The position numbers and the translations under genes were made by a program. Shown piece after piece: positions 26,158 through 43,620 of a stretch of 44,770 nt of DNA; position 1 is the first letter of the stretch; each line of letters starts with the position of its first letter. The stretch covers positions 1 to 44,770 of the forward strand of contig JANYDT010000223.1 in NCBI GenBank assembly GCA_025359845.1, read 5' to 3'. The DNA is from Acidimicrobiia bacterium. GTDB taxonomy: Bacteria; Actinomycetota; Acidimicrobiia; Acidimicrobiales; JANYDT01. The notes beneath the pieces are model-generated. The model was not told where the DNA came from. It was given only the letters and a program-made list of their open reading frames with translations, and did not search any database.

Positions 26158-27789
26158 TTAGTCTAATGCGTTTAATGGCTCAGTGCTCAACAGTGGGCTG
26201 CGGCGCGCCAGCATCGCCGCGCCCCTTCGGGCCACTTCGCCCATCGTTTGCGTGAGGATGGCGATGTCCAGACCGACCGACCAATTTTCGACGTAGAACA
26301 CGTCGCAACGTTCATAGCTTTCAAACGATGGTGAATCGCGCTCCTCGACCTGCCAGAGGCCAGTGATCCCCGGGCGAACCCGGTGACGCATGAGAAGACG
26401 GTCGCCAAAGGTGGCCACCTCACGAGCCAAAGCCGGCCGAGGCCCCACAAGACTCATTTCGCCGCGCAACACGTTGAGCAACTGGGGCAACTCGTTGAAG
26501 CTGGTGGCATCCAGAAACCTCCCGATTTTCGTGAAGCGAGGATCGTCCTGCAGTTTGAACAGCGGCCCGGCACGCTCGTTCTGGGCCATGAGTTCGGCCA
26601 GCTTGGCCTCTGCGTTGACCACCATCGTGCGGAGTTTGAACATCGTGAAGGGTTGGCCGTCGCGTCCTATGCGTTGCTGGCGGAACAGAACCGGTCCGCG
26701 GTCGGTGAGTTTGATCAGGACGGCGGCGGCCAGCATCACGGGAACCGCCGGGATGAGCAACAGGCTCGACAAGACGACGTCGAGAGCCCGCTTCACGCGC
26801 GCCTCCCAGCCGGTGAGCGTAACCTGCTCGAGATAGAAGGCGGCTTCGCGCCCTATGGGGTTGGCCCGAAGCCGGTTGGACGCGAACCCAGCTAGCCCGC
26901 CTGACATCTGGACGTGCATACCCTCGTCGAGAACATCGCGCACTACGGCGTTTAGCTCGGCGAAACTCACCGACGATGGGGCGATGATCACTCCGGTGGC
27001 TCCGCACCCGCGGGCCGACTGAATCGTGCCGAGCACGGGGCCGAGAAAGGGCGCTGAGAAGCCGTCGCGCGCAGCTTCGTCGGCGTCGCCCACGACTCCA
27101 ACCACGTCATAGCCGAGTTCGGGCCGATCGGCAAGCAACCGGTCGAGGTCGCGAGCCTCGGCGCCGGTACCGACCAGGAGCACTGGCCAGGCATGACGCC
27201 CCTCGGTGCGGGCGCGACGCAGGTGTCCGCGATAGCCCGATCGGCCGAGCATCAAAAATACGAATCCGACGAAGGCGGCCACGGCGATGCGACTGAAACC
27301 GACGTCTGTGGCGAGGCGATCATCGAGGAAGGTCAATATGGCGACGGTCATGAGTTCAGCCCGAAACATCGTCGACAATTCCAGGGCGCGCACGCTGCAA
27401 ACCCGAGCCCGGTAGAGCTTATTGGCGGCGATGACGATGAGGGTGGCCACGACAAAGATCGGAAGGACGAAGGCGCGCCTGACAGTCCAGATCGAGCCCC
27501 GCCCAGAACTGAGGGCCACGATGCTCCAACCGGCGGCCGTCCAAAGGGCGTCGCTGGCTACCAGTAGACCGCGGAGCCTTCGGCTGCCGCGAACTGTCTC
27601 CGACGACCGTCGAACGGGCGAGCTTCTGGGCTCGGCCGGCGACGGTGGACCGGGCAACGATGGGGTGCTGCGGGTTCCGTGCACGGGCGGCGTCTTCCTC
27701 AGCTCAAGATTCTCGTGAACGAATGGCGGTTCATGTCTGAGTGCAGTATGACGATCTCCGGCAGTGACGGGAAGAGGCGAATGAATCAT
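26158..27789 (-). CDS. Initiating polyprenyl-phosphate sugar phosphotransferase (WcaJ/WbaP-like)
   Basis: This enzyme type starts surface polysaccharide repeat units by moving a sugar phosphate from a nucleotide sugar to undecaprenyl phosphate. The polar N-terminus (about 70 residues) is followed by four membrane segments, a Rossmann-like domain (VLLVGTGAEARDLDRLLADR), a fifth membrane region and the bacterial sugar transferase domain. That domain shows KRALDVVLSS, DRGPVLFRQQRIGRDGQPF, FKLRTM, FNELPQLLNVLRGEMSLVGP and RPGITGLWQVE. The protein has 543 residues. It is transcribed away from the rest of the locus, with 98 bases to the thioesterase start. The sugar is not predictable. Confidence 0.92.
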   Translation of the reverse strand: MIHSPLPVTAGDRHTALRHEPPFVHENLELRKTPPVHGTRSTPSLPGPPSPAEPRSSPVRRSSETVRGSRRLRGLLVASDALWTAAGWSIVALSSGRGSIWTVRRAFVLPIFVVATLIVIAANKLYRARVCSVRALELSTMFRAELMTVAILTFLDDRLATDVGFSRIAVAAFVGFVFLMLGRSGYRGHLRRARTEGRHAWPVLLVGTGAEARDLDRLLADRPELGYDVVGVVGDADEAARDGFSAPFLGPVLGTIQSARGCGATGVIIAPSSVSFAELNAVVRDVLDEGMHVQMSGGLAGFASNRLRANPIGREAAFYLEQVTLTGWEARVKRALDVVLSSLLLIPAVPVMLAAAVLIKLTDRGPVLFRQQRIGRDGQPFTMFKLRTMVVNAEAKLAELMAQNERAGPLFKLQDDPRFTKIGRFLDATSFNELPQLLNVLRGEMSLVGPRPALAREVATFGDRLLMRHRVRPGITGLWQVEERDSPSFESYERCDVFYVENWSVGLDIAILTQTMGEVARRGAAMLARRSPLLSTEPLNALD

Positions 27790-28823: not shown

Positions 28824-29525
28824 ATGTCAATGGCTCCTCTTTCCTTACGTCTCAGAACAAGCCGCCTCGGGGCAACGGAGGCCGTTCGTTTGGCGCGCTT
28901 GGCTTGGAACCGAGATCAAGGGCTGCCGCGTGCCGTGAAACTGCGGAAGGCTTCGGCCTTCGTGCGGAGCCTGCTGTTGGGTTCGTTGTACCTGCGGCGA
29001 GTCGATGAAACAGGCTCGGGGGTGCGTTGCCTTGGCCGACCCCGTATCACCAACGACGGGTTCATGAAACTCGGCAGCGGGTCTGTTCTGAGGTCGCACA
29101 TCGTGCCCGTCGAATTGGTGTCAGGGCCCGGAGGTCGACTCGAAATCGGCCGCTTTGCTGTCATCAATACGGGGGTAAGCATTGCTGCTCATGGTCGGAT
29201 TACGATCGGTGATCGGGCCTTGATTGGCCCCTATGTGATGATCAACGACACCGCATATCACGATGTCTACGAGCGGGGCATAGTGCCCGCGCCGCAGCCG
29301 ATCGTGATCGAGGACGACGTTTGGCTGGGCGCGAAATCGACTGTGCTGCCGGGGGTGCGAATCGGACGCGGCGCAATCGTTTCCGCCCATGCCCTCGTCA
29401 CGAAGGACGTACCGGAATTCACGATCGTCAGTGGAGTCCCGGCGGAGGTCGTAGCAAGGCTGAATCCGAAGAAGTTTGCGGTCGCCGCCAAACAAAATGT
29501 CGGTTGCGAGAAGGACACTTCATGA
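28824..29525 (+). CDS. Left-handed beta-helix acyltransferase (hexapeptide repeat)
   Basis: Residues from about 75 to 215 form hexapeptide repeats ([LIV]-G-x4), with GRLEIGRFAVINTGVSIAAH, ITIGDRALIGPYVMIND and VWLGAKSTVLPGVRIGRGA, ending in the family closing segment VTKDVPEFTIVSGVPAEVVA. Such trimers transfer acetyl or other acyl groups from CoA (or carrier protein) to sugars; the closest group is the maltose/galactoside O-acetyltransferase type. The 233-residue length includes an N-terminal basic stretch of about 50 residues. Two ATGs (28824 and 28830) are possible. No start codon exists in the same frame between it and the thioesterase stop. Confidence 0.85.
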   Translation: MSMAPLSLRLRTSRLGATEAVRLARLAWNRDQGLPRAVKLRKASAFVRSLLLGSLYLRRVDETGSGVRCLGRPRITNDGFMKLGSGSVLRSHIVPVELVSGPGGRLEIGRFAVINTGVSIAAHGRITIGDRALIGPYVMINDTAYHDVYERGIVPAPQPIVIEDDVWLGAKSTVLPGVRIGRGAIVSAHALVTKDVPEFTIVSGVPAEVVARLNPKKFAVAAKQNVGCEKDTS

Positions 29526-30556
29526 CGTCGGTGTCGGTAATAATCGCGGCGTTCAACCGGCCGGACTCGTTGCGGGTGCTTCTGTGTGACCTATCGCGTC
29601 AGGAACTGGACGGCGAGGTCGAGGTCATCGTGGTCGACGACGGCAGCGAACCGTCCATCGGTCCCGAGGTCGGCGTCGCCATCCCGTCGGGCCTGTCGGG
29701 CACGATCCTTCGCCAAGCCAACGCCGGGCCGGGCGCGGCCCGCCACTACGGCATCGGCGCGTCGAGCGGCGAAATCGTCGTCATCATCGACGACGACATG
29801 ACCATCCCACCGTCGTTTTTGGCCGCTCACGTGGCGGCCCATCGACAAGGCGCGACACTCGTCATGGGCCTCATTCGAGAGCCCGCCGGGGGCCAAGGTC
29901 GGCCGCTCTTCGACCGCTTCCACTTGTATTCGCTCGACCGATTCGTCACGGCCTATCGCGCGGGTACGGCCGAGCTTCATGGCGGACGCCTGTGCACGGG
30001 CAACGTCTCGGTGCGAAGATCGGCTTATCTCGGTGTCGGCGGCTTCGATTTGTCAATGCGGCGCTGCGAAGATCGCGACTTGGGGCTGCGGATGGAAGCG
30101 GCGGGTGAGCGGCTCGCCTTCGCGGAAGAGGCATGGGCGCAACATTGCAGCGATCACGCTGACGCCCGCGCCTGGCTGCGACGTTCGAGTGAATGGGGGG
30201 CTGCGGATGTCCTCATAGCGGCCAAGCACCCTCGGTTCGACCACGCCAGTCCTTGGACCTTCTTTCGTGACATACCTCGCCTCGTGCACCCGTTTGCGCT
30301 ATCCGCCGCGTTCGTCCCCCGACTTGGCGCCATTGGTGCACGCGTTGTCTATCGCGTCGCGACGGTGATCGATCGGCTCGGTCGAGAGCGCGAAGCCTTG
30401 ACCGTGACGACATTTGCCTATGCCCTTTCTTACTACGGAGGCGTGGGGCGACAATCGGGTACATCGAAGTCGGTATGGCGCTCGTATCGGGTGTGGCGCA
30501 ATTCACACGCGGCGGGTCCCGCCGTTGGAGCCATCCCGCTGGAAGTACTCCCGTGA
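29522..30556 (+). CDS. Glycosyltransferase family 2
   Basis: The N-terminal GT-A domain begins TSVSVIIAAFNRPDSLRVLL and contains VIVVDDGSEP, ANAGPGAARHYG and the metal-binding VVIIDDDMTIPPS, all typical of inverting GT2 enzymes. CTGNVSVRRSAYLGVGGFD and CEDRDLGLRMEAAGERL follow, as in transferases that add one sugar to a lipid-linked repeat unit. It has no N-terminal membrane segment. The ATG in the ATGA overlap with the acyltransferase gives 344 residues; the frame is open upstream but overlaps that gene. Donor and acceptor are unknown. Confidence 0.9.
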   Translation: MTSVSVIIAAFNRPDSLRVLLCDLSRQELDGEVEVIVVDDGSEPSIGPEVGVAIPSGLSGTILRQANAGPGAARHYGIGASSGEIVVIIDDDMTIPPSFLAAHVAAHRQGATLVMGLIREPAGGQGRPLFDRFHLYSLDRFVTAYRAGTAELHGGRLCTGNVSVRRSAYLGVGGFDLSMRRCEDRDLGLRMEAAGERLAFAEEAWAQHCSDHADARAWLRRSSEWGAADVLIAAKHPRFDHASPWTFFRDIPRLVHPFALSAAFVPRLGAIGARVVYRVATVIDRLGREREALTVTTFAYALSYYGGVGRQSGTSKSVWRSYRVWRNSHAAGPAVGAIPLEVLP

Positions 30557-31110
30557 AGGGCTTCAAGCGATTCTTCGCCGACGTGACATCTGACTACAGC
30601 CAGGTGCGGCGTTCGCTCGAGAAGTACGGGGGCCGATCGTTGCCATCGTGGCGGCTACCGATCGATGCCGTTCAACGAATCGGATTCCAAATGATGATCG
30701 CCGTGCGGTTCATGCGACTGCTACGAGACCTGCGAATACCCCTCGGTGCGCAAGTGGTGTCGCGACTGATCCGACTCAGCTATGGCGCGGAGATCCATTG
30801 GGATGCAGAACTGGCCCCTGGAGTGTCAATAGTTCATGGGACGGGCCTGGTTCTAAGTCGTAGTGCCAGGGTCGGACAGGGTTGTATCCTGTTCCAGGGA
30901 GTTACGCTCGGGGAGTCGATCGACGCCACAAGCCGGGAGGTGGGTGCGCCCACTCTCGAAAGTGACGTACACGTCGGCCCCGGCGCGGTTCTTCTCGGTC
31001 CGATCACGATCGGCGCGGGTTCGAAGATCATGGCGAACGCCGTCGTTACGATATCCGTCCCCTCAGGGTCGATAGTTCGTTCGCCCGCGCCAGAGGTGGA
31101 TGTCCGATGA
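30553..31110 (+). CDS. Serine acetyltransferase-like (CysE-type) hexapeptide acyltransferase
   Basis: The fold is a left-handed beta helix of the CysE/LbH type, with the segment GAEIHWDAELAPGVSIVHG, VLSRSARVGQGCILFQGVTL and VHVGPGAVLLGPITIGAGSK. In serine acetyltransferases the corresponding histidine pair acts on serine and CoA; the first 70 residues here do not form the full CysE N-terminal domain, so sugar acylation is more likely in this locus. The length is 185 residues. The GTG start lies in a GTGA overlap with the GT2 stop, and the next gene overlaps its own stop by ATGA. Confidence 0.85.
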   Translation: MKGFKRFFADVTSDYSQVRRSLEKYGGRSLPSWRLPIDAVQRIGFQMMIAVRFMRLLRDLRIPLGAQVVSRLIRLSYGAEIHWDAELAPGVSIVHGTGLVLSRSARVGQGCILFQGVTLGESIDATSREVGAPTLESDVHVGPGAVLLGPITIGAGSKIMANAVVTISVPSGSIVRSPAPEVDVR

Positions 31111-31895
31111 ATAGGGTTGCGTTCGGACATATTCACGCCGACGGCGTGACCTTTGACGAAGCCGTCGCGTTAATAGTCGAGCGAGCCGCTCATCGCCAGG
31201 GCGGCTACGTGGTGACTCCAAACGTCGATCATGTCGTGCTGGCCGAAACCGATGCCGATTTGCGAGCCTCGTACCGCGACGCGTTCCTTTCCGTGGCCGA
31301 CGGCATGCCCCTGCTCTGGATAGCGCGCTGGTGCCGATCGCCCCTACCGGCCAAGATCTCAGGCTCGGATCTGACGGTCCCATTGGTCACCGCCGCGGCG
31401 GCAGCAGGGGTGAGCGTATTTCTTCTCGGTGCTTCCCATGAGACGTGCGAAAGGGCCATTGAGGCCATGACTCGGCAATGCCCGTCCCTTCGGGTTGCCG
31501 GTCATGCTTCTCCCGACTTCACGCTCGACGGCGACCAGCGGCCCGTCCTGGAAGCCTGCGGACGAGCTCGGGACTCGGGGGCTGGCCTCGTTCTCGTAGC
31601 CATGGGCTGTCCGAAACAAGAGGTGTTGATGCACCGATTTCATGGTTACTTCGACGGTGCTGTAGCGATCGGGATCGGCGGAACCCTGCGGTTCCTCGCC
31701 GGTGAGGTCGATCGTTGTCCGCCGTGGATGGCGCGGACGGGCATGGAGTGGCTGTATCGGCTGGTCAAGGAACCGCGCCGCCTGGCCGGTCGGTATTTGG
31801 TGCGCGACCGAGCCATTGCCGGCATTGCCTGGAGGCAGTGGCGAGCCAGTCGACTGCCGGTGCGGCTCGGAAACGAACAGGTTGATCCGTCGTGA
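31107..31895 (+). CDS. WecG/TagA/CpsF family glycosyltransferase (GT26)
   Basis: GT26 enzymes transfer N-acetylmannosamine, its uronic acid or related sugars to lipid-linked intermediates (TagA in teichoic acid, WecG in enterobacterial common antigen). T37 in VVTPNVDH and D65 in SVADGMPLLW fall at the positions of the substrate-binding Thr and the proposed catalytic Asp of TagA. The segments ISGSDLTVPL, VSVFLLGASHETCERAI, VLVAMGCPKQE and GIGGTLRFLAGEVDRCPPWM are clear family marks, and the tail GMEWLYRLVKEPRRLAGRY is the membrane-associating part. The length is 262 residues, coupled by ATGA to the gene before. Confidence 0.93.
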   Translation: MNRVAFGHIHADGVTFDEAVALIVERAAHRQGGYVVTPNVDHVVLAETDADLRASYRDAFLSVADGMPLLWIARWCRSPLPAKISGSDLTVPLVTAAAAAGVSVFLLGASHETCERAIEAMTRQCPSLRVAGHASPDFTLDGDQRPVLEACGRARDSGAGLVLVAMGCPKQEVLMHRFHGYFDGAVAIGIGGTLRFLAGEVDRCPPWMARTGMEWLYRLVKEPRRLAGRYLVRDRAIAGIAWRQWRASRLPVRLGNEQVDPS

Positions 31896-34692: not shown

Positions 34693-35964
34693 GTGAGATC
34701 ACCAGGATTGATCGGTTTGGCGGCCATCGCGGCCAGCTTGCCAGGAGCGCTCTGCGGAGCGTACCTGGGCGCGCTCGGAGCGCTCGGCGGATCGCGCCGT
34801 GGTTCGCCCCGCGGGCCGGCGCCAGAAACGCTCAACCATTTTCCGCTCATAGCGGTCCTGGTGCCGGCCCACAACGAAGAGAACAACGTCGCGGCCACGG
34901 TATCGAGCCTGCTGGCGACCGACTACCCGGCGTTGCGACTACGAGTTCTGGTCGTCGCCGACAACTGCCGAGATGAGACCGCGTCGGTGGCGCGCGGCGC
35001 CGGGGCCAGCGTGCTGGAACGCCGAGACGCGGTTCGTCGAGGTAAAGGGTACGCCTTGGCCGCTGGGTTCGAACATGTGCTCGCCGATCCGACGGTTGAC
35101 GCGGTGGCGGTGGTCGACGCCGACACTTCGGTGTCGGCCAACTTGTTCAGAGAAATGGCCTGTGCCTTCCAACGCGGCGACGATGTGGTTCAGGCTGACT
35201 ATGGCGTGAGTAACGCGATGGCGTCATGGCGGACTCGCCTGATGGTGATTGCTTTGTCCTGCTTTCATGGTGTGCGGTCGACGGCGCGCGAGCGCCTCGC
35301 ACTGTCGTGTGGCTTGCGCGGGACAGGAATGGGGTTTACCCGGGCTGCCCTGGTCGGGGTTCCACACGATTCGACTGGTTTGGTCGAAGACGTCGAGTAT
35401 GGAATCGCCCTTGGCCTGGCCGGCCATCGAGTGGCGTACCTCGGCGCCGCCCACGTGCGCGCAGAGATGCCCTCCACGGCTGCCGCGGCGACATCGCAGC
35501 GAGACCGATGGGAGCACGGTCGCCGCCAGCTCATCCGCCGATGGGGCCCGTCGTTGGCCCGAGCGGCCCCCGGGAACCGAGTTGCCGCCGACCTCTTGGC
35601 CGACTTACTGGTTCCTCCGTTGGCCCAATTGGTAGCAACTCTGCTCGTAGTGGGATCGGTCGGAGCGGTCCTGGCCTCCTCGGGTGTAACCGCCCTGCCT
35701 GTCGCGTTGAGCGCGACCGGCCTGGCAGGAGTTTGCCTTTACGTGACCCGTGGATGGCAGTTGTCCGCCACGGGCCTGCGGGGACTCCGAGACCTGGTCA
35801 CGGCTCCGGCCTATGTGGGCTGGAAACTCGGCTCGAAGGTGCTCGGGCGCGCCAAACCGCGCCGAGACAACGGATGGGTTCGCACTGCACGAGAACCGCT
35901 GGAGGGCAATGACCGCGCCTCGGAGCGCCCCAAAATAGCGTGTCTCACGACAACGAAGGAGTGA
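34693..35964 (+). CDS. Membrane glycosyltransferase family 2, processive-synthase type
   Basis: The GT-A domain contains IAVLVPAHNEENNVAATVSS, VVADNCRDET, VAVVDADTSVS and VEDVEYGIAL, then SQRDRWEHGRRQ, close to the Q-x2-R-W motif of cellulose and hyaluronan synthases. One membrane segment lies at the N-terminus and two to three follow the catalytic domain (about residues 300-355). No PilZ domain is present. These features suit a membrane-bound beta-glycosyltransferase that may be processive, but single-sugar transfer cannot be excluded. The GTG start is seven bases after the previous stop. The length is 423 residues. Confidence 0.85.
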   Translation: MRSPGLIGLAAIAASLPGALCGAYLGALGALGGSRRGSPRGPAPETLNHFPLIAVLVPAHNEENNVAATVSSLLATDYPALRLRVLVVADNCRDETASVARGAGASVLERRDAVRRGKGYALAAGFEHVLADPTVDAVAVVDADTSVSANLFREMACAFQRGDDVVQADYGVSNAMASWRTRLMVIALSCFHGVRSTARERLALSCGLRGTGMGFTRAALVGVPHDSTGLVEDVEYGIALGLAGHRVAYLGAAHVRAEMPSTAAAATSQRDRWEHGRRQLIRRWGPSLARAAPGNRVAADLLADLLVPPLAQLVATLLVVGSVGAVLASSGVTALPVALSATGLAGVCLYVTRGWQLSATGLRGLRDLVTAPAYVGWKLGSKVLGRAKPRRDNGWVRTAREPLEGNDRASERPKIACLTTTKE

Positions 35965-36522: not shown

Positions 36523-38628
36523 ATGAGTCGAGTTCGAGTCTTGGCAGTGTTGGCTACGGCCGCCGCGTTGTTCGCAGCCGGCAGTCCGGCGCGCAGTGGC
36601 GCCCAGACGAGTACGTCGGCGCCCGCGGCCGCTTCGGTCGTCGTCTTCGACGCGGGCTTGCAGTCAGGCTGGATAGATTTCGGTTGGTCGAACAAGCCGG
36701 TCGTTGTGGGCCAACCCGTCGAAGTGGACATGGGGGACTTTGGCGGCTGGATCACTGCGAAACCGGGGGGCCAGGTCGGTGTCTTCGGGTCGGTGGAACT
36801 CTCATACAGCGTTTCCGACACGTTCGCCGGAGCGCTCGCACTGCGGCTCGGCGATGACCACAACTCGATTTTCCCAGAGGTAATCTTAGCGGCCGTCAAG
36901 GCCGATGGAACCGGCATGCGGCGACTGTCGATCGGCTTCGACAAGTTGAATCCCGGTCGGTTGCGCTTTGATCGAATCATTGTGCGGGGCCGTGTTCAAC
37001 TGCCGAAGAATTCCGTCATCCGTATTAGTCGTATTGCCCTCACTGTGGGCTCAGGTCCGACTCAGTCTCCAGCGCGGGTAGGGGCGCCGATCCGTCCGAC
37101 CGGCAGCCGTGCGATCACGGCCGATATTGACTGCGCGAGCGATCGTAGGCCCATATCACCGCTGATTTACGGCATCGCGTACGACGAAATCAAAGACGCG
37201 TCGAGCCCGCAGCAATGGACGATGGGAGCGACTGCTCGGCGCTGGGGTGGAAATCCCACGACACGGTACAACTGGCAATCGCATGTCTGGAACACGGCCA
37301 GTGATTACTTTTGGCAGAACGTGGCGGTGCGCGGTCACGAAGCATTTCTGAAGGACAATGCGGCCCACGGTTTGCTCAGCGTGCTCACGGTACCGACGAT
37401 CGGGTGGGTGGCGAAGGATGCAACATCGGAGTCGTTTCCGGTGTCGGTGCTCGGACCGCAACAGGCGATCGAGCCCGATCACCCCGACGCCGGCAACGGC
37501 GTGTCGACGGCCGGCAAGAAGTTGCCCCCGGGGTCACCGAAAACGACGAGCATTGCCGCGCCGCCAGATTTCGTTGGTCGTTTCGTGGCGTCGGTCAAGG
37601 GTCAGGTGACTATCTACCAATTGGACAACGAGCCCGAGATCTGGGATTCCACCCATCGAGATGTCCATCCGAACCCCGTTTCGTACGACGAACTGTTGAA
37701 ACGGACCGTCGACTACGCCTCGGTCATCCGCCAGAACGACTCCAAAGCGGTGATCGCCGGTCCAGGATCGTGGGGATGGCTCGGATACAACTACTCGGGC
37801 GTGGATGCGGCCGCTGGGTACACCCCGAAGCCGGACCGGCTGGCGCACGGCGACAAACCCCTGCTGGCGTGGTATCTGCAACAGCTCCGCGAGGCGGAGA
37901 AACAGAAGGGCGTGCGCCTCCTCGATGTGCTCGATGTCCACTTCTACCCGCAGGAAGAGAACATTTACGGTCAATCGGGTCGGCTCGACCCGCAAGGGTC
38001 GGCGTTGCGCATCCGCTCGACCCGTTCGCTATGGGACCCGACTTACACGGACGAGTCGTGGATCAAGGACAAGATTGCGCTGCTTCCTCGTTTGAATGGG
38101 TGGATCGCTGACAATTATCCAGGAACGAAACTTTCGATCGGGGAATGGAATTTTGGCGGAGAGTCTCACATGAGCGGAGCGCTCGCGACGGCTGAGGCCT
38201 TGGGCCGATTTGGTCAAAACGGAGTCTACGCGGCCAATTATTGGACTCTTCCGCCCGTCGATTCGCCGGTTTATTGGGCGTTTCGGGCGTTCCGAGGAGT
38301 GGCGGGACCAATCGCCAGCGGTGCCCATCTCGGCGCAACGTCGGTTAGGTCCACTTCGAGTGATCCGAGCAACGCATCCGTGTTTGCTTCCGTCGACGAA
38401 CGAGGAAAGATGTCGGCGGTGGTGCTCAATTTTTCTCCAGCAACCACACTCTCGATTTCGCTACGGACCAAGGGTTGCGTTCCAGCCGGAGCCGACGTGC
38501 GGCTTCGCCAATTCTCCTATGATGGGTCGAAGCCGGGCTTTCTCGGTCCGACGCTCTCGGCCATTTCAACTGGAAATGCGACGGTCTCGGTGCAGCCCTG
38601 GAGTATCAACGTGGTGGAGATCGCGTGA
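36523..38628 (+). CDS. Secreted glycoside hydrolase family 44 (endo-beta-1,4-glucanase/xyloglucanase type)
   Basis: GH44 enzymes are retaining endoglucanases. After a Sec signal peptide (about residues 1-28) and a beta-rich N-terminal domain, the catalytic part starts near residue 195 with ISPLIYGIAYDE. It holds ARRWGGNPTTRYNWQ, the acid/base E370 in QLDNEPEIWDSTHRDVHP and the probable nucleophile E541 in SIGEWNFGGE. A beta-sandwich end follows. The length is 701 residues. It starts directly after the TAG of the BY-kinase-like gene and overlaps the ACP gene by GTGA, so it is part of the polysaccharide operon and probably trims or releases the polymer, as GH8 BcsZ does for cellulose (inference). 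Confidence 0.88.
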   Translation: MSRVRVLAVLATAAALFAAGSPARSGAQTSTSAPAAASVVVFDAGLQSGWIDFGWSNKPVVVGQPVEVDMGDFGGWITAKPGGQVGVFGSVELSYSVSDTFAGALALRLGDDHNSIFPEVILAAVKADGTGMRRLSIGFDKLNPGRLRFDRIIVRGRVQLPKNSVIRISRIALTVGSGPTQSPARVGAPIRPTGSRAITADIDCASDRRPISPLIYGIAYDEIKDASSPQQWTMGATARRWGGNPTTRYNWQSHVWNTASDYFWQNVAVRGHEAFLKDNAAHGLLSVLTVPTIGWVAKDATSESFPVSVLGPQQAIEPDHPDAGNGVSTAGKKLPPGSPKTTSIAAPPDFVGRFVASVKGQVTIYQLDNEPEIWDSTHRDVHPNPVSYDELLKRTVDYASVIRQNDSKAVIAGPGSWGWLGYNYSGVDAAAGYTPKPDRLAHGDKPLLAWYLQQLREAEKQKGVRLLDVLDVHFYPQEENIYGQSGRLDPQGSALRIRSTRSLWDPTYTDESWIKDKIALLPRLNGWIADNYPGTKLSIGEWNFGGESHMSGALATAEALGRFGQNGVYAANYWTLPPVDSPVYWAFRAFRGVAGPIASGAHLGATSVRSTSSDPSNASVFASVDERGKMSAVVLNFSPATTLSISLRTKGCVPAGADVRLRQFSYDGSKPGFLGPTLSAISTGNATVSVQPWSINVVEIA

Positions 38629-38852
38629 ACCTCGAAGAGTTACTGGGACTCATACTCGAAGTCGATCCTTCGTATCTCACTGATGCGACGTTGCGCGCCG
38701 ACGTCACCAATTGGGACAGCTTGGCCCATCTTTCGGTCGTTTCGGGGGTGGAGGAGATGTTCGATGTGCTTCTGAGCACGTCCGAGATGCGCGAAGTCAC
38801 GTCGGTCGCCGCGCTACGCGCCATCCTCAGAACGAAGGGGGTCGTCGTATGA
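38625..38852 (+). CDS. Acyl carrier protein
   Basis: This 75-residue protein has the acyl carrier fold, with the phosphopantetheine attachment S32 in NWDSLAHLSVV and the conserved acidic helix after it (VEEMFDV). It is not next to fatty acid genes. It starts in a GTGA overlap with GH44 and ends in an ATGA overlap with the FkbH gene, which implies that the two products act together. In characterised systems an FkbH enzyme loads a glyceryl group from 1,3-bisphosphoglycerate onto such a carrier. Confidence 0.92.
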   Translation: MNLEELLGLILEVDPSYLTDATLRADVTNWDSLAHLSVVSGVEEMFDVLLSTSEMREVTSVAALRAILRTKGVVV

Positions 38853-40579
38853 TCGCGCCACCAACGCTCCTGGCGCGCCGTCTCGGCTGGAAGGAGGTCG
38901 AGCGCGGTGGCCGACCGGCCCGGACCCGAACCGCGCTGCTCTCCACCTTCACGGTGGATCCGATTACGCCCTACCTCGGTATGGCAATGGAAGAAGCAGA
39001 CCTTGCCCCCACCTTTTTTGTAGGTCAGTTCGGCCAGGTGACCTCCGAGTTTCTCGACCCCATGAGCGCCACGGCCCGGTTCAGGCCCGATCTTGTCGTC
39101 GTCTGGCCCTCCCTCGAGGATCTCTGGGGGGGAGCAGCGCTGCCGCTCGACGGCGCGCTCGACGGGTACGTGGAGCCTCTCGTCGAAATGGCGGGGGTGG
39201 CCGCCGCGGCGGCGGCGAAGTGGTCGGCAATGCTGGTATTTGTGCTCCCCGCGTTGCCGATGGTCAGGCCTTTGGGCGTCGGCGACGCGACCAACCCGCT
39301 GGGTGTTGCGGCGGCCGCGTACGCGGCGCGCGAAGCCGCCCGCGCCGCGCTCACGATTCATCCCGGAGTGCTTGTGGCTGACGCCGAAGATGTCGTTCGT
39401 GGGCTCTCGACCGGGGCCACATTCGATCCGCGGCGGTGGTACTCGGCGCGTATACCGTGGAGCGAGGTCGCCTTTTCGATCCTCGCCGAACAGGTAGCGC
39501 GACTTGTCTCGCTGGCCCGTTTTGGAGCCCGCAAGGTCGTGGTCGTCGATGCCGACAACACCTTATGGGGCGGTGTCGTTGGTGAGGTCGGGCCCGAGCG
39601 TGTCGACATACTTGACAACGGCCCGGGCGAGGCCTATCGAGGTTTCCAGCAGTACCTGATTGAGTTGCGTCGGGCCGGCCTCGTGCTGGCCTTGGCATCC
39701 AAAAACAATGAGCCAGAAGTATGGCGGGCCTTTGGCCGCCGCGAGATGGTGTTGCGTCAAGAACACCTATCGGCCTGGCGAGTCAATTGGAAACCCAAAG
39801 CTGAGAACATCGATGACATGGTTGCGGAGTTCAACTTGGGGCTCGAATCAGTGGTGTTCATCGACGATTCGCCAATGGAGCGCGACTCGGTCGTCTCGGC
39901 GCTGCCCGGGGTTAGAGCAGTCGCCTTTCCAGAAGACCCCTCCGATTGGATAGCCATGATCACCAAGGACGGCTTCTTGGATCGCCTCCCGCCGACCACT
40001 GACGACCTGACTCGGGCCAACTCTTACGGGGCCGAGCGGCAACGCCGCGTGGCGCGCAGCACGTTGACCCATGAGCAGTACCTTGACACGCTCCGTCTCG
40101 AAGTCGCCATGTTCATGCCGGCGCCCGACGACCTCGCTCGACTCGCGCAACTCGTGGCCAAGACGAATCAATTCACCCTCCATCAACCGCGTCACTCGGA
40201 GGCGACACTGGCGGCGATCATCGGTGACCCGAGCATCGCAGTGCGCCTCGTCGCGGCGCGGGACCGCTTCGGCGACTACGGGGTAGTCGGGGCCTTTGTC
40301 GTCGTGGGACGAAAGCTCGACACGTTCGTGCTTTCCTGCCGGGCCATGGGCCGAGGCGTCGAGGTGGCCATGCTCACAGCCGCTGGGAAACTGGCAGGTG
40401 GTCCGATCGACGTTCAGGTCGAGGTTGGTGCACGAAACGCACCGGCTCGTGAATTTTTCGCCATACACCGGGTTGTCGACGGTGTAACCGACGGGCCCGC
40501 TACTGACGGCCGCCGCATATCGGTTCTTGCGCCATCGTGGCCAAAGCATGTTTCATCATTTGGAGGGTTGACATGGTGA
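38849..40579 (+). CDS. FkbH-type HAD enzyme (glyceryl-ACP synthesis family)
   Basis: FkbH proteins join a HAD phosphatase-like domain to a GNAT-like C-terminal domain; studied members take 1,3-bisphosphoglycerate, remove phosphate and pass a glyceryl unit to a carrier protein. The first 225 residues form a SGNH-like or linker region. The HAD nucleophile is D234 in VVDADNTLWGGVVGE with D236 two residues on; the later acidic pair D339-D340 is in VFIDDSPMERDSV. The C-terminal part has KTNQFTLHQPRHS and LSCRAMGRGVEVAML. The ATGA start gives 576 residues; the frame is open upstream into the ACP gene. Other three-carbon substrates remain possible. Confidence 0.9.
   Translation: MIAPPTLLARRLGWKEVERGGRPARTRTALLSTFTVDPITPYLGMAMEEADLAPTFFVGQFGQVTSEFLDPMSATARFRPDLVVVWPSLEDLWGGAALPLDGALDGYVEPLVEMAGVAAAAAAKWSAMLVFVLPALPMVRPLGVGDATNPLGVAAAAYAAREAARAALTIHPGVLVADAEDVVRGLSTGATFDPRRWYSARIPWSEVAFSILAEQVARLVSLARFGARKVVVVDADNTLWGGVVGEVGPERVDILDNGPGEAYRGFQQYLIELRRAGLVLALASKNNEPEVWRAFGRREMVLRQEHLSAWRVNWKPKAENIDDMVAEFNLGLESVVFIDDSPMERDSVVSALPGVRAVAFPEDPSDWIAMITKDGFLDRLPPTTDDLTRANSYGAERQRRVARSTLTHEQYLDTLRLEVAMFMPAPDDLARLAQLVAKTNQFTLHQPRHSEATLAAIIGDPSIAVRLVAARDRFGDYGVVGAFVVVGRKLDTFVLSCRAMGRGVEVAMLTAAGKLAGGPIDVQVEVGARNAPAREFFAIHRVVDGVTDGPATDGRRISVLAPSWPKHVSSFGGLTW
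40562..40567 (+). promoter_or_regulatory. Shine-Dalgarno site before the third acyltransferase
   Basis: GGAGGG lies five bases before the ATG at 40573 and inside the last codons of the FkbH gene. It fixes the start against an open frame 36 bases further upstream. Confidence 0.7.
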
Positions 40580-41145
40580 AGCGGGCGACGATCGAAGGGT
40601 TCCTGCGCGACATCAAATCCAGCACCCACGTGCGCTATCGGGCGGCCAACCTCCTTTGCCGTTGTCTCCCGCAGTTCGCCAGCGGGTACGTCCGAGCCCA
40701 CGTGTATCGTCTGGCCGGACTTGATGTGGCGAAGAGCGCTTTCCTTATGGACAACATAGAGTTGGCGAGCGGCCGACCGGGCTTCAGTGCCAAGCTGCAC
40801 ATCGGCGAGCGGACCCTCATCAGTACGAACGTCACGATCAACCTGGACGGGCCGGTACACATAGGTAACCAGGTAACGATCGGTCCGTTCGTGAAGATCT
40901 ACAGCGGATCTCATGAAATGGGCGACTCGTCGTGGCGGTGCTCACCGCAAGCGACGGGCCAGTCGGTAGTGATCGAAGACGGCGCTTGGGTGGCGGTCGG
41001 CGCCACAATCTTGCCCGGGGTGCGAGTCGGTCGTGGCGCAGTGGTCGCGGCTGGAGCCGTGGTGACAAAGGATGTTGCGCCGAACGCCTTTGTCAGTGGC
41101 GTCCCGGCCGTAGTTACCCGCGAGTTACCTGAAGGCAAACCGTGA
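40573..41145 (+). CDS. Left-handed beta-helix sugar O-acyltransferase
   Basis: The 190-residue protein has hexapeptide repeats from about residue 75: KLHIGERTLISTNVTINLD, VHIGNQVTIGPFVKIYSGSH, and AWVAVGATILPGVRVGRGA, with the closing segment VTKDVAPNAFVSGVPAVV. The His of SGSHEMG is at the place of the catalytic histidine in maltose/galactoside acetyltransferases. The start has GGAGGG upstream and overlaps the FkbH stop by seven bases. Its place after ACP and FkbH suggests that it moves the carrier-bound acyl group to the polysaccharide, though CoA-dependent acetylation is equally compatible with the sequence. Confidence 0.87.
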   Translation: MVKRATIEGFLRDIKSSTHVRYRAANLLCRCLPQFASGYVRAHVYRLAGLDVAKSAFLMDNIELASGRPGFSAKLHIGERTLISTNVTINLDGPVHIGNQVTIGPFVKIYSGSHEMGDSSWRCSPQATGQSVVIEDGAWVAVGATILPGVRVGRGAVVAAGAVVTKDVAPNAFVSGVPAVVTRELPEGKP

Positions 41146-41162: not shown

Positions 41163-41813
41163 TCACCGAGGAAGAAAACCCGACGCAACTTTGTGGCATT
41201 GGCTTCCCCGCGGTGGCGTGAGGGTTACGACGATGCGCGCGGGCCGAAACCCGAGGACATCTTCGATGTGGGCCGCGCCCGAGGGATGGCGTGGGGTGCG
41301 GGGAAGGCGCTGGAGAAGTCGAGCGTCGGCGACCGGCAGCCACTGCTTTTGACCCTTCCAGCCAAAGGAGCAGCGCAGTCCGCGCGCATCATTGGTCAAA
41401 ACCGGCCGGGTCTCTGGTTCGATCAAAGCGACGGTCTGGTGACCGGTTACCTCCCACCAAGGTGCCGACGGGCCGAGCAGGCCGAGAATGGGCTGCGAGC
41501 GGGGGTGCAGGAGGGCCTTGAGATATTTCTCGGCGGCCCGAGGACGAAGACTTCCAGTCCGTTGCAATGGGGCTTCGACAGCGACATACTCGGGTTGCTC
41601 GTTCACGAGGTCGCTGAAAGCGACCTTGGCCCGGGCTCGAGCCAAGTCGAACGGTTCCAGTGCGGTTTCGGACGACGACGGCTCATGTATGCGCACGAAC
41701 GCGCCCGAAGTCAGGTCAACAGCGACACACCACCGCCGGGCTATCGCAAGAGCAAGGACATTCAGAACATCACCGGGCTGGGTTGCTCGACAGGGGATCG
41801 TTGCCGTCCGCAT
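41163..41813 (-). CDS. Unknown protein on the minus strand inside the polysaccharide operon
   Basis: I do not recognise this family. The 216-residue product has amphipathic and hydrophobic patterns expected of a folded soluble protein (VLNVLALAIARRWCVAVDL, FDLARARAKVAFSDL, RPARIVVTLTPPRGSQCHKV) and no signal peptide. The start ATG has GGAG a few bases upstream. It lies opposite to all neighbours, ending 18 bases from the acyltransferase stop and starting 50 bases from the next + strand gene. The + strand is also open over the same region, but its product is Arg-rich and of poor quality. It splits the operon, so the genes after it need their own promoter in this gap. Confidence 0.65.
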   Translation of the reverse strand: MRTATIPCRATQPGDVLNVLALAIARRWCVAVDLTSGAFVRIHEPSSSETALEPFDLARARAKVAFSDLVNEQPEYVAVEAPLQRTGSLRPRAAEKYLKALLHPRSQPILGLLGPSAPWWEVTGHQTVALIEPETRPVLTNDARGLRCSFGWKGQKQWLPVADARLLQRLPRTPRHPSGAAHIEDVLGFRPARIVVTLTPPRGSQCHKVASGFLPR

Positions 41814-41863
41814 AATCTCCGATCATGGCGCATTCGTCCACGGAAGTGGGGGATGGTCGCCCG

Positions 41864-42031
41864 ATGGTGAAGTTTCTCCTCCTTTCGCCGATAATCTTCA
41901 CGATCTTGTTCCCCGCGATGGCCGCGGGGCGCGACCCGGAGCGCGGTATGCCCAGAGCACTGGGTTGGTGGTTCTTGTTCTCGATGTTCTTCATGGCGGC
42001 GATGCGCTGGCTGTATCCGAGACTCTTGTGA
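41864..42031 (+). CDS. Small membrane protein (55 residues)
   Basis: The product begins MVKFLLLSPIIFTILFPAMA, then a polar loop with DPERGMPRALG, then WWFLFSMFFMAAMRWLYP, which is a hairpin of two membrane helices. The in-frame ATG at 41825 would add 13 polar residues but lies only 11 bases from the divergent start; ATG 41864 has GGATGG about ten bases upstream. The stop is in a TGATG overlap with the Wzy-like gene, so it is probably translated and coupled to it. The family is not known to me. Confidence 0.6.
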   Translation: MVKFLLLSPIIFTILFPAMAAGRDPERGMPRALGWWFLFSMFFMAAMRWLYPRLL

Positions 42032-43620
42032 TGCGTGGACGAGAGCCACTCTTCGGGGATAGGACCGTGCAAAGCGCCATGGGGCCGACCGGTGAGATGG
42101 GCGGTCCCCTGCCGACGTACGGCCCCCGGTGGCGGGTCAAGCGGCGACCCATTCGTCGAGCGGCGCTAATGCAGTGGGAGACCTGGAAGTTTTTCTTCGG
42201 GGTCGTGCCGGTCGGGGTGTTGGTCGTCCTATTCGCCGGACCTTTCTTTGCCCTGCTTCTTCTCGCGGCCGTTCTCGGCTACATAATGTTGACGAGGGTC
42301 CCGCTCGAGTGGATCATACCCGGGGTGCTGTTTCTCGTATTGGCCCTCGACAATCCCGGCAATCGCCCCGCCGATGATATGTGGAAGTCTCCCTTCTTGC
42401 CACTGGGAAAGCTGCTGTTCGAAAACCTTAAACCTCTTCCATTTTCAGCCCTCGATCTTGTTTTTGCATTGAGTACCATGCGAGCGGTTTCGGCGCTGGT
42501 CATGAGATCGAACCGGGGCGCAAAGAGCGGCGTGACGGTTGGTGTTCCGCCGAGATATTTTCTTCGGGCGGCGCTGATCTCGCTCGCCGCGATCCTTTGG
42601 CATGAGGTGCACGGCGTGTATGGGGGCGGAAACTGGCGCCAATCGCTCTGGCAGGTGCGCCAGGCCGTTTGGATGCCGTGTCTAGCCGTGACGGTCAGCG
42701 CCATCATCACGCCGACCGTGTTGCGTCGCATCGAACGAATGGTGATCTGGGGAGCCGTCGTCAAGGCCTTCACAGGTTTGTGGTTCTACTTGGTAGTGGC
42801 GAAACCACATGGCTTGCTGCCAGCTTACGTCGGTACTCACAGTGATTCCGTGATGTATGCCTTGGTACTCGCGATGCTGGGGGCGAAGTGGTTCGCCTAC
42901 CGAGATGCAGCGACCCGTCGCCAGCTGCTCTGGGTCGGGCCCTTGATGTTCTTGGTGATGAATCTCAATGGGCGCCGGATCGTATGGGTCGGCGTCGCCG
43001 GCGCGCTGGCCTACGTGATCGCTACGTCTGACCGCCAGATGAAACGCAAGCTGGGTACCACGCTGTTGGCGATTGCTCCTCTCATCGGTATCTATTTTGC
43101 GATAGGCATGAAATCTAATGCTCGGGTCTTCTACCCCGCTAAAATGGTGAATTCAGTGCTATTTCAGAACGATCGATCAAGTCAAACGCGCGACGTCGAG
43201 AATTACAATTTGTTCGTCACCTACCTTCAAAGTCCCGTGATCGGTGTTGGGGCCGGACACGAGTATGTCGAGTACGTGGTCGGCGATGATATTTCCAAGA
43301 TCTTTCCGCAGTATCGTTATATTCCCCATAATAGTTATCTCGGTCTTTGGGCATTCGGAGGGGGGCCGACCGCATCGTTGTATTCGTTGACGTGGATCGC
43401 CGCCGTCTACTGCGCCACTGCGTCCCTCAAGCGCTCCCGACATCCTCTCATCCGCTCGTCGGCTCAATGGGCGGTCGCAGGCATAATCGCGTACTTGGTC
43501 CAAACTTTTGGTGATGTCGGGTTCCAGGACTGGTCTCCGGCCATTATCGCCGCGCTTTGCTGTGGGGTGGCGGGAGGGCTTGTGCCCCTCAGCCGGGTGC
43601 CCGCGGAGGAGTTGGCGTGA
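42031..43620 (+). CDS. Wzy-like O-antigen polymerase/ligase family membrane protein
   Basis: The 529-residue protein has about eleven hydrophobic segments and a periplasmic loop between about residues 350 and 430. The loop has VFYPAKMVNSVLF, and the downstream PHNSYLGLWAFGG matches the HN-x-YL motif of the O-antigen ligase and polymerase superfamily. The cytoplasmic N-terminal 45 residues are polar. Its role would be to polymerise lipid-linked repeat units exported by the flippase. Start: the ATG in the TGATG junction; a GTG one codon before is also possible, and the long open frame upstream is antisense to the minus-strand gene. GC falls locally near 43080-43340. Confidence 0.85.
   Translation: MRGREPLFGDRTVQSAMGPTGEMGGPLPTYGPRWRVKRRPIRRAALMQWETWKFFFGVVPVGVLVVLFAGPFFALLLLAAVLGYIMLTRVPLEWIIPGVLFLVLALDNPGNRPADDMWKSPFLPLGKLLFENLKPLPFSALDLVFALSTMRAVSALVMRSNRGAKSGVTVGVPPRYFLRAALISLAAILWHEVHGVYGGGNWRQSLWQVRQAVWMPCLAVTVSAIITPTVLRRIERMVIWGAVVKAFTGLWFYLVVAKPHGLLPAYVGTHSDSVMYALVLAMLGAKWFAYRDAATRRQLLWVGPLMFLVMNLNGRRIVWVGVAGALAYVIATSDRQMKRKLGTTLLAIAPLIGIYFAIGMKSNARVFYPAKMVNSVLFQNDRSSQTRDVENYNLFVTYLQSPVIGVGAGHEYVEYVVGDDISKIFPQYRYIPHNSYLGLWAFGGGPTASLYSLTWIAAVYCATASLKRSRHPLIRSSAQWAVAGIIAYLVQTFGDVGFQDWSPAIIAALCCGVAGGLVPLSRVPAEELA

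Follow-up and report, generated by a model that had tools for sequence, protein, structure and literature searches.

The window analysed here (the whole stretch of DNA, 44,770 nucleotides) harbors a three-gene cassette encoding a free acyl carrier protein (ACP), an FkbH enzyme and LbH2, an acyltransferase of the left-handed beta-helix (LbH) type. On balance, we favor the view that this cassette serves the carrier-dependent glycerylation of an exopolysaccharide (EPS) made by a Wzx/Wzy system. The individual parts are known, but their use in an exopolysaccharide locus seems to be undescribed.

The cassette and its genomic setting

According to the initial annotation, the three genes overlap by 4 and 7 bases and specify a carrier, an FkbH enzyme and a beta-helix acyltransferase. 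Both overlaps are exact (ACP/FkbH, 38849-38852; FkbH/LbH2, 40573-40579), and the three identities were upheld, with catalytic motifs intact:

38625 to 38852, forward strand: free acyl carrier protein (ACP), 75 aa; translation, sub-cut-off match to PF14573 (E 0.0015), homology to FkbH-adjacent ACPs
38849 to 40579, forward strand: FkbH enzyme, 576 aa; TIGR01686, TIGR01681, invariant residues, predicted structure
40573 to 41145, forward strand: LbH2, left-handed beta-helix acyltransferase, 190 aa; Hexapep match, Maa/LacA/WcaF relatives, alignment with EPS-locus homologues

The end of the preceding GH44 gene also overlaps the start of the ACP gene by 4 bases (GTGA, 38625-38628), and the cassette is thus the end of a longer packed run in the order GT2, CpsD-like, GH44, ACP, FkbH, LbH2. 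Translation of the ACP starts at a GTG codon and that of the two enzymes at ATG.

The predicted phosphopantetheine site of the ACP is Ser32 within NWDSLAHL. The protein scores below curated cut-offs (PF14573, 19 bits versus 32; NF002150, 16.6 versus 66) and is clearly homologous to carriers adjoining other FkbH genes, such as that of locus L026 (41.5% identity, 2e-11). With a separate FAS-type ACP present elsewhere in the genome, the cassette ACP is a dedicated free carrier for FkbH. The genome contains two PPTase genes; the second (G000:C102:3468-4140) adjoins another carrier-protein match, away from the window.

FkbH is the only such enzyme of its genome and scores 241-243 bits with TIGR01686 (cut-off 146.65) and 63 bits with TIGR01681. 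It comprises an SGNH-like N-domain, a HAD-IIIC core and a C-terminal domain with C497 in an SCR motif that is present in 111 of 112 FkbH rows. The HAD motif residues are intact (D234/D236/T238, S284, K317, D339/D340) and, like the SCR cysteine, invariant in an alignment of the window enzyme with ten relatives. Foldseek matches of the predicted structure (pLDDT 78) were B. fragilis BF1531 (3slr), MDP-1-type HAD phosphatases and GDSL/SGNH hydrolases.

Certain relatives of FkbH initiate lactyl units, and the window enzyme might likewise load or yield a small acyl group other than glyceryl, for example lactyl, that would still reach the polymer. It belongs to a divergent branch and reads KTNQFTLHQ in place of the near-invariant KTNQFNLTT, a variant unique among the 97 rows with the motif, although this count is biased for loci of the wider scan described below, where KTNQFN[LV]T served as pattern. 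We nevertheless regard a different acyl group as quite improbable, given that every catalytic residue of the HAD domain is kept, as is the SCR cysteine, and that the locus holds no gene to reduce or dehydrate glyceryl. Genes for glyceryl modification in general (dehydrogenase, methyltransferase, MaoC, SDR, KS) were looked for in the locus and none was found, which favors plain glyceryl.

The other genes of the locus are the following:

26158 to 27789, reverse strand: polyprenyl-phosphate hexose-1-phosphate transferase (initiating enzyme); PF02397, 208 bits
27888 to 28715, forward strand: type II-like thioesterase; PF00975, 62 bits
28824 to 29525, forward strand: LbH1, second left-handed beta-helix acyltransferase; Hexapep, 2.4e-14
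29519 to 30556, forward strand: GT2a, family 2 glycosyltransferase; PF00535, 70 bits
30550 to 31110, forward strand: CysE/EpsC-like LbH protein of the serine-acetyltransferase type; NF041874 EPS_EpsC, 109 bits (cut-off 150)
31107 to 31895, forward strand: WecG/TagA/CpsF glycosyltransferase; PF03808, 170 bits
32011 to 33624, forward strand: Wzx flippase; PF01943, 72.5 bits
33624 to 34685, forward strand: Wzc-like chain-length determinant; read by eye and from position, no Pfam match
34693 to 35964, forward strand: GT2b, family 2 glycosyltransferase, conserved in sister loci; PF13641
35971 to 36522, forward strand: CpsD-like chain-length partner; read by eye, adjoins the Wzc-like gene, no Pfam match
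36523 to 38628, forward strand: GH44 glycoside hydrolase, EpsB-like; PF12891, 214 bits; NF041873 EPS_EpsB, 640 bits (cut-off 1250)
42136 to 43620, forward strand: Wzy polymerase, EPS type; NF041870 Wzy_EPS, 284 bits (cut-off 670); PF04932

In all, the locus encodes the initiating transferase and three glycosyltransferases, together with Wzx, a Wzc-like protein, Wzy, GH44 and three LbH proteins. Homologues of GT2b in Armatimonadota EPS loci are 35-45% identical. No P-loop is apparent in the CpsD-like protein, which may therefore be a degenerate tyrosine-kinase partner. A 216-aa open reading frame (41163-41813, reverse strand) between LbH2 and wzy has coding-like GC by codon position and no Pfam or NCBIfam match.

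A free thioesterase in the locus had also been noted. It is a real gene, but it lies about 10 kb from the ACP gene at the opposite end of the locus, and other FkbH loci show no such link; with a homologue near FkbH in just one of 96 loci, its membership in the cassette is uncertain and not supported.

FkbH loci in other genomes

A scan of the genome collection with the window FkbH as a single sequence returned zero relatives, and an alignment was required. FkbH relatives occur in 18 of the 395 genomes of the class, and a wider, alignment-based scan yielded 80 FkbH loci spread over many phyla, Thaumarchaeota and Asgard archaea among them. Over 96 loci, FkbH has an ACP-like small gene nearby in 77, an MBOAT gene in 18, where FkbH and ACP are found near MBOAT acyltransferases, and a modular KS (polyketide synthase) in three; an LbH gene at most three genes away was counted 28 times. 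MaoC dehydratases, SDRs, PPTases, polysaccharide deacetylases, GNATs and methyltransferases are among the other neighbors, and for this reason many FkbH modules elsewhere may alter the acyl group further. In L026, L027, L030, L050, L051 and L074, FkbH and ACP adjoin an MBOAT acyltransferase (PF03062 in the three tested) and a second protein family without Pfam match, a Dlt-like layout with FkbH as loader. Loci L055, L062, L068, L070, L078 and L085, of Thaumarchaeota and related archaea, contain FkbH, in most cases next to an ACP-like gene.

The trio of LbH2, FkbH and ACP is present in four Armatimonadota loci (L178, L231, L232 and L237; LbH2 35-44% identical). Six Armatimonadota loci have the arrangement GT2-WecG-LbH2-GH44, in several cases followed by Wzy, with FkbH and ACP absent. 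In L178 (on a contig shared with L057) the order is WecG-LbH2-FkbH-ACP-GH44, i.e. the FkbH-ACP pair lies between two genes that adjoin directly in the sister loci. The trio FkbHs occupy three places in the tree (window; L231/L057; L232/L237), and the paired LbH2s are not grouped in the weakly resolved LbH2 tree. Based on these trees, the pairing of FkbH and ACP with one acyltransferase family seems to have arisen more than once, and such repeated pairing argues more strongly for a common function than a single locus would.

Two side observations concern the trio loci. In the carriers of two of them (L232, 4314-4556; L237, 233-538), the motif at the serine predicted to be modified reads WTSF, not WDSL. 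Both the window (41825-42031, 68 aa) and L178 (372-506, 44 aa) encode a small membrane protein immediately upstream of wzy; the two show a similar GW..SM pattern, and no such gene was found in the FkbH-free loci checked.

FkbH enzymes were first known from polyketide clusters (PMC7489565), which raises the question of whether the cassette serves a secondary metabolite and came to lie in the EPS locus by an accident of horizontal transfer. In the FkbH tree the row nearest to the window (L098), on very long branches, adjoins a PKS; moreover, large PP-binding proteins are encoded elsewhere in the genome and the locus includes the thioesterase. The overlaps of cassette genes with GH44 and LbH2, the presence of the conserved trio at EPS loci in a different phylum, in one case together with GH44, and the rarity of modular KS genes near FkbH nonetheless make this scenario extremely improbable. 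A plasmid search at the DNA level for close copies gave short matches only.

EpsB-type GH44 occurs in two other genomes of the 395 in the class, neither time in an EPS locus, and a genome of the same family (G991, 78% complete assembly) contains GH44 fragments and no FkbH match. The two GH44 genes that scored best in Myxococcota lacked EPS neighbors in the stretches read, indicating that the genomes drawn lack the eps locus itself.

Proposed route and donor of LbH2

The initial annotation had interpreted the cassette as a route for decorating the surface polymer with a glyceryl or related three-carbon ester. This interpretation is the best available and is partly supported, namely by the gene identities, the motifs, the dedicated carrier, the PPTases and the recurrence in EPS loci; from these we infer a glyceryl substrate, its loading onto the ACP, the carrier as donor, transfer by LbH2 to an acceptor on the repeat unit, an ester bond and the decoration as such. 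A PPTase would prime the ACP at Ser32. FkbH would take 1,3-bisphosphoglycerate, which should yield D-glycerate; its HAD domain would strip the phosphate, and the glyceryl would be passed by FkbH to the ACP thiol, probably through C497. LbH2, with His114 as general base, would then place the ACP-bound glyceryl on a hydroxyl of the lipid-linked repeat unit in the cytoplasm, after which Wzx would flip the unit.

LbH2 (Hexapep, 3.4e-13, 49 bits; cut-off 27) is a protein of the Maa/LacA/WcaF kind whose best PDB relatives are Maa/LacA-type O-acetyltransferases. It might be an ordinary acetyl-CoA O-acetyltransferase, with glyceryl-ACP being used for the same polymer or for another molecule by a different enzyme; candidates are LbH1, the CysE/EpsC-like protein and any enzyme whose gene lies elsewhere. 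The two further LbH proteins in the locus fit this model, and so do the homologues adjoining GH44 in the six Armatimonadota loci devoid of FkbH and ACP, which are probably ordinary acetyl-CoA O-acetyltransferases. The catalytic His114 is kept in 18 of 18 aligned rows, and Trp139 of the window protein is kept within GAWVA. A tryptophan opposite the catalytic histidine is typical of acetyl-CoA users (PMC3046976), and its retention speaks against a change of donor.

By contrast, the 7-base overlap with FkbH and the apparently repeated joining of this family to FkbH and ACP in four other loci argue against LbH2 as an acetyltransferase, and the same holds for the erosion of basic residues in paired LbH2 proteins. 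When all LbH genes near FkbH were compared for CoA residues, nothing could be learned, as many represent unrelated LbH types; the comparison used here is restricted to the LbH2 family. Positions 166, 180 and 183, which are K, V and R in the window protein, correspond to K166, R180 and R183 of LacA, which probably contact CoA. All three are basic in eight of ten unpaired and in none of six paired LbH2 proteins (Fisher p 0.007, a value that is too small as the rows are related). This pattern was noticed post hoc in the window, L178 and L029; L231, L232 and L237 were added later and fit it. Judged from these sequences, the loss of basic residues is consistent with a change of donor from CoA to carrier, and we consider it unlikely, although by no means far-fetched, that LbH2 is an ordinary acetyltransferase.

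Related systems and significance

Polyketide pathways of actinobacteria offer well-documented cases of carrier-bound glyceryl (PMC7489565, PMC3679948). The FkbH/ACP pairs of tetronate and methoxymalonyl pathways (such as Mad7/Mad8 and Mad14/Mad12) resemble the window in combining an FkbH-like enzyme with a free ACP and in the expected glyceryl source, 1,3-bisphosphoglycerate (PMC7489565). Unlike these pathways, the window has the pair beside an LbH acyltransferase in a polysaccharide locus. The partners that mark such operons (FabH-like protein, dehydrogenase or methyltransferase, together with a PKS) were not found in it, and the absence of polyketide modules that had been reported for the window was confirmed. 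It had also been noted that no characterized actinobacterial example was known, and none for polysaccharide glycerylation was found in the literature searched. Likewise, the literature searched on FkbH in connection with O-antigen, capsule, Sphingomonas or glycerate esters did not describe a gene for glycerylation of a polysaccharide.

The Dlt system for D-alanylation (DltA/DltC/DltB/DltD) also combines a loader, a free carrier and an acyltransferase for a surface polymer. Its loading enzyme is different, however, and the acyltransferase of the window is a cytosolic LbH protein and not an MBOAT, the form present in the loci of FkbH relatives such as L027 and L050.

The eps locus of Myxococcus xanthus (PMC7484181) shares with the window EpsB-like (GH44), EpsC-like and Wzy_EPS-like proteins in a Wzx/Wzy locus. 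The GH44, CysE-like and Wzy proteins of the window all score below the curated cut-offs and are distant relatives rather than members of these families, no outer-membrane export gene was recognized in the window locus, unlike in M. xanthus eps, and neither ACP nor FkbH is mentioned in the M. xanthus study (PMC7484181).

Glycerate or a derivative of it is known to decorate glycans in two systems. A flagellin sugar of Campylobacter carries dimethylglyceric acid (PMC3068675), and the flagellin glycosylation locus of Campylobacter jejuni holds the FkbH-domain gene cj1302. Strain 12664 has cj1302 as a pseudogene, and no dimethylglyceric acid sugars were detected in it; they are also absent from strain 12661, in which cj1301 is missing (PMC7099621). 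As in the window, an FkbH gene is found in a glycan locus, and the C. jejuni sugar bears a glycerate-derived acyl group, although this is amide-bound, methylated and located on pseudaminic acid of flagellin (PMC7099621, PMC3068675). Gellan gum of Sphingomonas contains glycerate and acetate as esters (PMC9104527). Like the polymer proposed here, it is an exopolysaccharide with a glycerate ester, although in the L form and not in the D form expected from 1,3-bisphosphoglycerate. Both precedents are suggestive rather than conclusive. Industrial patents are said to describe a role of fkbH in gellan glycerylation; a gene for this modification was not found in the literature searched.

It is tempting to speculate that FkbH and ACP constitute a widespread, little-recognised glyceryl-activation module for bacterial and archaeal surface glycans, which may have been joined repeatedly to acyltransferases of either the cytosolic LbH type or the membrane-bound MBOAT type, the LbH enzymes switching from acetyl-CoA to glyceryl-ACP; the window would be one example. 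If the glycerylation module proposed for the window is real, it would provide a genetic handle on a chemically known decoration (the glycerate of gellan, the methylated glycerate of Campylobacter) and link central glycolysis directly to surface polymer chemistry. Paired and unpaired LbH2 proteins would represent a test case for the choice between CoA and carrier as donor. Since the gelling of commercial gums is controlled by acyl decoration, identification of a glyceryl transferase would also be useful.
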